From a virus: a stretch of DNA of 40,015 nucleotides. The notes under the pieces are model-generated. The model searched no databases and had not been told where the DNA came from. It worked only from the letters and a program-made list of their open reading frames with translations. The stretch lies in the IMG/VR virus record IMGVR_UViG_3300026512_000033, positions 1-40,015 of that record; one strand, written 5' to 3'. Below are positions 1 through 40,015 of the stretch, in pieces. The position numbers were made by a program, and so were the translations under genes. Position 1 is the stretch's first letter, and every line of letters begins with the position of its first letter.

Positions 1-158
1 TGTTGGGGGGACTTCACACAAACAACCGCCCTCAACCCCAACCAAATCCTTACCGTTAGCGGAGTAGTGTATCTGAGCAAGCCTGTGACTGTGCCCCATA
101 ACCAAATTACTCATCACAGAGTACATAGTATTCTTAGCCGAGTAGCCAGCGTACTTAC
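1..158. repeat. Terminal direct repeat, left copy (genome circle closure)
   Basis: These 158 bases recur at 39858-40015 with one difference (A at 127, G at 39984). The overlap lies inside one open reading frame that continues across the junction, so the window is one full circle of 39,857 bp plus overlap. The mismatch is a silent third-position change in a Thr codon. This suggests population variation or a read error, not two functional repeats. Confidence 0.95.
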
Positions 159-1638
159 TCAAACTACCCCCATTCAAACGCTTATCGCCATGCATAATAA
201 TAGTATCGCCAAGCTTAAGAGTTCCCGCTGTTTTCTTCCAATAATCAGGATCTGCACCAACCCACTTAACACCTTCAACGTTAAGCATTAAGAGGTTCTC
301 AAGCTTCAAACCTTCCAAACCGTAAAGCTCCTTATTCTTCCACAAATACTTCTGAAGCCTACTGTTACCAGTGAAATTAACCCTCCCATTCACACGAGTT
401 ATAAGAGTTTCTTCTTTCGTGGTAATGGCTACGAACTTTTTAATCTCTGGAACTACTTCAAAAGAAGCGTACTTGGAAACAATTCCTTCAGGGTAAATGC
501 TAACCTTGTAAACAGGCTTATTCCCAAACCCAGCGCGGTTATCCCTGACAGAGTACTTCGCTGGGATTCCGTGAAGAATACACATCCTCTGAACCCTATC
601 AACATTCTCAAAATCCGTGCTCGTCCAAACAATGTGATTATAAGCTCTCCCCCCATCAGTCTCAGCGAGAGTTTTTAAAAGAGCTTTTAACTGCTCTTCA
701 GAAATGTTCAGAACCCACTCTTCTGGAAAACGCTTAACACCTCCTAACAAGTTGAAGATGCGTTTAGCCCAGTAACCGTAAATCCTAATCATGAATGGTT
801 GTAACTTGTTATGCCTGCTCACAGTTGCTTTTCTGAGAGTGTAAGGAACCCCCATGCTATCCAACAGGTTTGTTAAACTTCTTATTTTTCTCTGTTTGGA
901 CAGTTTGAACTGAACCCCTACTTTTGAACTGTTAGGATTGTATTTTGAGTAATCCACAACGGTTCCGTCAGCGATCACCCAAGTGAGTAGTTTTATTTCC
1001 TCATTGGAGAGTGGTAAGGGGTTAGCAGTCTCGTAAAAGCCTGCGAATCTCTGCTCAGTTTGGGAGAAACCCTTCTTCATAGCGTCTGAAACCTTAACCC
1101 TCCTCCCATTGATTATTAATGCGTGGTTAAAGGTTACGTGTTCCTCCCCAAGCCAAGTTTTAACAACCACCCACTTATCCACTATGCGTGATGAAACTTT
1201 TAAAGGGTAATCAAATCTTACCCTGCCACTTCTCATGTTAAACTGAGCGACTTTATCCTGTTTGGTTATTTCCGCTGCGAGCTTCCAACCCTTATCAGTG
1301 AGTACTTCCGTGTCTTCAGTAACGCATTCGTGATTACCTTCCAAGTAGTAAATCTTAGTTTTTTTACCGACAGCTCTCCTAATCTTCCTAATGGCGTCCT
1401 TACCCTGTTTGAGCTCCTCATCGATTGAGTAGTGTTCGGGATTCTTATCAAAATTGGAGAGTGAGTAAAAGTCTAACAAGTCCCCGTTTATCACGAACAC
1501 GTTAGGCTTGTTCTCCTTAACATACCTCAACATCAGGCTGAAAGCCTTCCCATCAAGGTATGGAATGTGATAATCCCCTGTCACAACAACTTTCCTAACC
1601 TTTCCAACTTCTTTCATAACGACATCCTCTAAACTCAT
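1..1638 (-). CDS. Calcineurin-like metallophosphoesterase interrupted by an intein (N-terminal part; continues at 39857)
   Basis: The frame is open from ATG 1638 to the window edge and continues in frame across the circle junction to the stop at 39720, giving a 591-residue precursor. Metallophosphoesterase motifs are GDYH (D22, H24), GDLLD (D53), GNHE (N102, H103), an MHGD histidine (H483) and GHSH (515-518). Residues 105-425 are an intein, so the spliced enzyme would be 270 residues. Such enzymes hydrolyse phosphomono- or phosphodiesters at a two-metal centre; viral ones are often nucleases or nucleotide phosphatases, and the substrate here is unknown. It is the last gene of the primase/methyltransferase operon. 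Its leader holds a 13-bp inverted repeat, with a GGGGG ribosome-binding site after it. Confidence 0.92.
   Translation of the reverse strand, partial: MSLEDVVMKEVGKVRKVVVTGDYHIPYLDGKAFSLMLRYVKENKPNVFVINGDLLDFYSLSNFDKNPEHYSIDEELKQGKDAIRKIRRAVGKKTKIYYLEGNHECVTEDTEVLTDKGWKLAAEITKQDKVAQFNMRSGRVRFDYPLKVSSRIVDKWVVVKTWLGEEHVTFNHALIINGRRVKVSDAMKKGFSQTEQRFAGFYETANPLPLSNEEIKLLTWVIADGTVVDYSKYNPNSSKVGVQFKLSKQRKIRSLTNLLDSMGVPYTLRKATVSRHNKLQPFMIRIYGYWAKRIFNLLGGVKRFPEEWVLNISEEQLKALLKTLAETDGGRAYNHIVWTSTDFENVDRVQRMCILHGIPAKYSVRDNRAGFGNKPVYKVSIYPEGIVSKYASFEVVPEIKKFVAITTKEETLITRVNGRVNFTGNSRLQKYLWKNKELYGLEGLKLENLLMLNVEGVKWVGADPDYWKKTAGTLKLGDTIIMHGDKRLNGGSLSKYAGYSAKNTMYSVMSNLVMGHSHRLAQIHYSANGKDLVGVEGGCLCEVPPT
364..1326 (-). 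mobile_element. Intein with LAGLIDADG homing endonuclease, in the GNHE motif of the metallophosphoesterase
   Basis: The intein is 321 residues (precursor 105-425). Block A is CVTEDTEVLT, starting at Cys1 directly after GNHE. Block B is HVTFNHALI, with its histidine. The two endonuclease helices are LLTWVIADG (217-225) and LLKTLAETDG (320-329), and both keep an acidic residue. The C-terminal junction reads NFTGN followed by Ser, so the +1 nucleophile is Ser426. Removing it joins GNHE to SRLQKYL, the usual run of this family. The residue before the terminal Asn is Gly, not the common His. The length and both dodecapeptides suggest an intact, mobile intein. Confidence 0.93.
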
Positions 1639-39719: not shown

Positions 39720-40015
39720 TTATTTTTTGGTTTTGTAAACTCTCCCACCATCGTAAAGCCTGTACTCCCCACCGATCTTCACAATCCTGTTAAGCTTCAC
39801 ATCAACCAGCTTACCGTTAGAATAGGTAAGGGTTACGAAGCCCTGCTGCCAATTAACTGTTGGGGGGACTTCACACAAACAACCGCCCTCAACCCCAACC
39901 AAATCCTTACCGTTAGCGGAGTAGTGTATCTGAGCAAGCCTGTGACTGTGCCCCATAACCAAATTACTCATCACAGAGTACATGGTATTCTTAGCCGAGT
40001 AGCCAGCGTACTTAC
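39720..40015 (-). CDS. Metallophosphoesterase, C-terminal part (continuation of the gene at 1-1638)
   Basis: This is the 3' end of the intein-bearing metallophosphoesterase; the frame is open to the window end. It carries the last metal-binding motif, GHSH, followed by a beta-rich C-terminal tail ending in KTKK. The stop at 39720 directly abuts the BRE/TATA promoter of the downstream Cys-rich gene, so the early operon ends here. It is listed separately only because the circle was cut inside the gene. Confidence 0.92.
   Translation of the reverse strand, partial: KYAGYSAKNTMYSVMSNLVMGHSHRLAQIHYSANGKDLVGVEGGCLCEVPPTVNWQQGFVTLTYSNGKLVDVKLNRIVKIGGEYRLYDGGRVYKTKK
39858..40015. repeat. Terminal direct repeat, right copy
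   Basis: Second copy of bases 1-158, with one substitution at 39984. It is what a circular or circularly permuted genome looks like after linear assembly. True fixed terminal repeats are less likely because the copy falls within the 3' part of a gene. Confidence 0.95.

Follow-up and report, generated by a model that had tools for sequence, protein, structure and literature searches.

Evidence for a class 1 intein at the GNHE motif of a viral metallophosphoesterase and for repeated entry of inteins into that motif

What are the 321 residues that follow the catalytic GNHE motif of a viral metallophosphoesterase, and how did they come to be there? The question is raised by virus record IMGVR_UViG_3300026512_000033, a 40,015-base viral contig (hereafter, the window). 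Profile searches identified terminase, portal, and major head and tail genes in the window, which therefore derives from a tailed virus. The same kind of search found no integrase among the approximately 30 window proteins scanned, there was no close DNA match to known phages, and a search of the plasmid collection returned no match. The phosphoesterase is encoded by a minus-strand ORF from position 1638 to position 1, in which Cys105 (base 1326) directly follows ...YYLEGNHE and Asn425 (base 364) directly precedes SRLQKYL. Because the contig carries a 158-base terminal repeat (positions 1-158 equal 39858-40015 with one mismatch), the reading frame continues across the left end as far as a stop at 39720, which makes the gene complete. 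The whole record probably represents a full genome, circular or permuted, of ~39.86 kb. The features of the locus, all on the minus strand, are the following:

1327..1638, minus strand: N-extein of the metallophosphoesterase, residues 1-104, ending ...YYLEGNHE (PHROG 221, Pfam Metallophos)
364..1326, minus strand: intein, 321 aa, C1 to N321 (junctions; solved inteins match its fold from residue 1 to residue 321)
1282..1326, minus strand: splicing block A, CVTEDTEVLTDKGWK, with the Cys1 nucleophile (weak TIGR01445 match; residues invariant in 16 inteins)
1111..1143, minus strand: splicing block B, EHVTFNHALII region, T65/H68 (conservation among 16 inteins)
964..990, minus strand: first LAGLIDADG motif, LLTWVIADG (helix 108-120 in the model)
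652..681, minus strand: second LAGLIDADG motif, LLKTLAETDG (Pfam LAGLIDADG_3; helix 210-222 in the model)
364..408, minus strand: splicing block G, ending VNFTGN, G320-N321 (both invariant in 16 inteins)
1..363, minus strand: first part of the C-extein, SRLQKYL..., in which Ser is the +1 residue (ORF reading)
39720..39857, minus strand: last part of the C-extein, with the stop codon (the 158-base terminal repeat connects it across the contig ends)
1702..2697, minus strand: primase-like gene, context only (PHROG 16345)

The sequences that flank the insert belong to the calcineurin-like enzymes of PHROG 221 (metallo-phosphoesterase, E 2.5e-33), also match Pfam Metallophos, and keep the D, GD, GNH[E/D], H, and GHxH motifs that are invariant in the host alignment. 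When joined and compared with the phage collection, they matched 663 records, most of which are mycobacteriophage proteins with the annotation metallophosphoesterase or recombination directionality factor (RDF). The joined ORF gives a precursor of 591 aa and, after splicing, an enzyme of 270 aa, the length that the initial annotation had given for a product in which GNHE-SRLQKYL is restored. Directly upstream lies the primase-like gene (PHROG 16345 primase, E 1.2e-8, with a LigD primase-polymerase match below threshold), to which nothing in the phage collection matched; the RDF gene of phage Switzer likewise has the primase gene nearby.

Residues 105-425 could in principle be a normal domain of this enzyme, as the continuous reading frame, and nothing more, would allow. 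More than 70 of the best 80 homologues on viral contigs have an uninterrupted GNH[E/D], most often GNHEER. These homologues keep the motif intact without the insert, which is therefore not a normal domain of the enzyme. Given that an intein fold also covers the whole length of the insert, we consider this reading to have next to no probability. A near-identical allele of the window virus that lacks the intein was not found.

The insert instead has the anatomy of a class 1 intein. It begins with Cys1 as the nucleophile and ends with N321 followed by Ser. In an alignment of 16 related inteins, C1, D5, T6, T10, and G13 of block A are invariant, and block B (EEHVTFNH) has the Thr-x-x-His arrangement, with H68 invariant and T65 at least 90% conserved. 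Both LAGLIDADG motifs (LLTWVIADG and LLKTLAETDG) retain their acidic residue. Block F reads FVAITTKE, without the Cys or Asp that is common in that block among relatives, which might bear on how efficiently this copy splices. The penultimate His is absent, its place being taken by Gly320. In class 1 inteins this His is usual but not universal, and its absence is no bar to membership.

Sequence models alone would leave doubt about this assignment. Pfam LAGLIDADG_3 scores over its cut-off on the insert, but the NCBIfam intein N-terminal model TIGR01445 is matched under its cut-off, and phmmer against solved chains gave only weak matches to RecA inteins. The predicted structure was obtained from the alignment of 16 related inteins (pLDDT 93.1, pTM 0.90). 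The predicted model has the horseshoe splicing fold, and the endonuclease region folds confidently. The best solved match is the TliVMA intein (Foldseek E 2.4e-17; Z 23.2, rmsd 4.7, 293 residues aligned), and the agreement with the TliVMA, PI-PfuI, and PI-SceI inteins extends from residue 1 to residue 321, thereby reaching both of the proposed splice junctions. Thus, the intein that had been proposed at 364-1326 stands, with exact junctions, splicing blocks, fold, and empty homologues all in agreement, and its individual elements (block A after GNHE, two LAGLIDADG-like helices, and a GN/Ser junction) are all present in the sequence.

It had also been suggested that few or no inteins were described in this enzyme family, a suggestion that is wrong. 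In the mycobacteriophage RDF, a calcineurin-like metallophosphoesterase, 37 inteins next to a conserved motif were described by Kelley et al. (2016; PMC5050341). We used phage Switzer as the stand-in for phage Bethlehem in the phage collection. The Switzer RDF (gp53) reads EGNHD/CSWTN...HLTGN/SRARDYL, where slashes outside brackets mark the junctions, and its intein has 317 residues, with the penultimate Gly at position 316. The window reads EGNHE/CVTED...FTGN/SRLQKYL, and its site and junction are the same as those of the Switzer RDF. Nor can Gly before the terminal Asn be called a less usual junction, as initially thought. The Bethlehem RDF intein (gp51), which has a penultimate Gly, had already spliced to completion at time zero in Escherichia coli, and its G316H mutant needed >5 hours to reach ~50% splicing (PMC5050341). 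The Gly-Asn ending was found in all 15 distinct related inteins examined at the motif and in 16 of 16 comparison phage inteins of other proteins (terminase, ribonucleotide reductases, polymerases, RtcB, and others). Because the comparison inteins share it, this ending is not peculiar to the GNH[E/D] site. Inteins ending SGN/S were also observed on three viral contigs (L008:3001-3960, L009:3001-3969, and L010:3001-3945), in host proteins whose sequences, by eye, look like anaerobic ribonucleotide reductase.

Single-sequence scans of viral contigs and genome contigs gave nothing usable, but alignments and a degenerate GNH[E/D]C DNA pattern revealed how widely the motif is occupied. The nearest relative found, on contig L006 (IMG/VR contig 3300033149_004289), has the same site and junction and is 51% identical to the window's intein. 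The phosphoesterase insert of Rheinheimera phage Barba is 35.8% identical over its whole length (E 1e-58). Identities at these levels are far beyond chance, and we reject a fortuitous resemblance to inteins. At this motif we found about a dozen further distinct inteins, each with a terminal Gly-Asn and with Ser or Cys as the next residue. Those on viral contigs, directly after GNH[E/D], are L095 (of which L107 is a near-copy), L096, L097, L099, L100, and L102-L106; those on genome contigs are L116 (Melainabacteria) and L126 (Parasutterella muris; same as L100). Most of the pattern matches on genome contigs were due to chance and contained no intein, only L116 and L126 being real. The identical copies L100:2159-2839 and L126:1555-2235, both on the minus strand, encode a mini-intein of 227 residues that seems to have lost most of its endonuclease.

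In the Barba gene (L002:2755-4224), whose product is recorded as a hypothetical protein or phosphatase, the intein is not annotated, and the joined Barba protein would have Cys after GNH, so that the usual Asp or Glu is missing. We found no paper in the open-access literature that describes the Rheinheimera insert as an intein, nor one on a superfamily-wide intein site at GNH[E/D]. Separately, ORF-187 of Tenacibaculum phage PTm1 (L134:601-1551), annotated as hypothetical, has an intein-like insert after GGAG.

In the intein tree, the inteins at the motif fall into two groups. The first comprises those of the window, L006, Barba, L103, L096, and L100/L126 (100/100), and the second those of Switzer, L095, L097, L099, L102, L104, L105, L106, and L116 (95/94); the tested Bethlehem intein is placed in the tree through Switzer. 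Inteins of other proteins fall between the two groups, and the split is unchanged when long branches are removed. A single origin for all inteins at the motif is disfavoured (p-AU 0.027 and 0.016), values to be read with the long branches in mind and with the fact that the group was not fixed blind. The host proteins form separate families by BLAST, namely the PHROG 221 type, a GDIHG type (L103, L104, L106, and L116), Barba, and L099, and each intein lineage is present in more than one host family. In the tree of the PHROG 221 type, proteins with an intein are interspersed with proteins that lack one, a pattern that requires at least four to six changes. The inteins of the window and L006 are sisters, but their host proteins are only ~34% identical and stand apart in the host tree, where L006 lies beside the intein-free L086 and L016 and away from the window. 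These comparisons are constrained by long branches, modest sampling, and midpoint rooting. The relationships of the inteins disagree with those of the host enzymes, and horizontal movement of the window's intein lineage, as judged from these sequences, is the simplest reading of this conflict and is indicated by it. We lean toward the view that, across the metallophosphoesterase superfamily, the catalytic GNH[E/D] motif acts as a hot spot for homing. At least two separate intein lineages, both ending in Gly-Asn, would have entered it, and each may cross between non-orthologous families because its endonuclease relies on a short conserved motif.

Taken together, we propose, with a probability of roughly 0.93, that the insert is a class 1 intein, bearing within it a LAGLIDADG homing endonuclease and lodged as a selfish element after the GNHE of a PHROG 221 metallophosphoesterase. 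For the window's intein we observe the anatomy, the fold, the empty sites, the same site in other proteins, and the conflict between intein and host trees. We infer that this copy both splices and cuts, and that it homes into conserved catalytic codons. In splicing, Cys1 would begin an N-to-S acyl shift, Ser+1 would take over the chain, and Asn321 would cyclise with no His in the usual penultimate place, so that GNHE is joined to SRLQKYL in the 270-residue enzyme. The endonuclease would most likely cut intein-free alleles at the GNH[E/D] codons, after which the intein would be copied in. The motif may be favoured because its loss kills the enzyme, and the same constraint would shield the intein from imprecise deletion. 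Several points count against this proposal, namely the block F without its common Cys or Asp, the absent penultimate His, the failure to find a near-identical intein-free allele, and the fact that the tested RDF intein belongs to another intein lineage than that of the window.

Two other views grant that the insert is an intein. It might still splice with a decayed endonuclease, as an inherited passenger that no longer homes, and mini-inteins with deletions at this very site (L100 and L126) show a precedent. We find this unlikely for the window copy, given that both LAGLIDADG acidic residues are kept, that the endonuclease region is confidently folded in the model, and that the intein and host trees are in conflict. 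The initial annotation had suggested that the intein could act as a folding- or redox-triggered switch. On the view of a conditional switch, the enzyme would remain inactive while splicing awaits a cue from folding, redox state, or some other signal of infection. An insertion beside catalytic residues would indeed leave the precursor inactive, and a mycobacterial DnaB intein is reported to splice in response to stress (PMC6195587). Nothing in our analysis spoke for such a switch at this locus, where we identified neither a trap cysteine pair nor any regulatory feature. Most homologues function without any intein, and the tested RDF intein was completely spliced at time zero (PMC5050341). We thus hold a switch to be very improbable, and the insert is better read as a homing selfish element.

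The enzyme family, the insertion site, and the Gly-Asn junction all have published precedents, one of them with splicing data. What is new is a separate intein lineage at the known site, together with evidence of repeated entry into the motif across enzyme families. The range of the known site thereby grows beyond mycobacteriophages to take in a tailed virus of a very different kind. As the same motif has been repeatedly invaded in enzyme families with little else in common, it offers a clean test of how a homing endonuclease can target a catalytic motif, and the window's intein and its relatives provide a test case for splicing without a penultimate His.

Among known systems, the mycobacteriophage RDF inteins (Bxb1 gp47 type) share with the window's intein the host protein family, class 1 membership, and the penultimate Gly. 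The Switzer and Bethlehem RDF inteins also have LAGLIDADG-type motifs and a similar length (317 vs 321 aa), and the insertion point read in Switzer, GNH[E/D]/C...TGN/SR, equals that of the window. In contrast, the RDF intein sequence is only ~22% identical to the window's and belongs to a different intein clade, and no integrase was found among the ~30 window proteins scanned, so that an RDF role for the window enzyme would be conjectural. The Barba insert belongs to the same clade as the window's intein and has the TGN end, but it interrupts a different phosphoesterase family one codon earlier (GNH/C...TGN/C). The intein of L006 resides in an enzyme from another branch of the family than the window's. 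Finally, although PI-SceI, PI-PfuI, and TliVMA reside in other host proteins and have 10-17% sequence identity to the window's intein, they share with it the two-domain fold of a splicing domain and a LAGLIDADG endonuclease.
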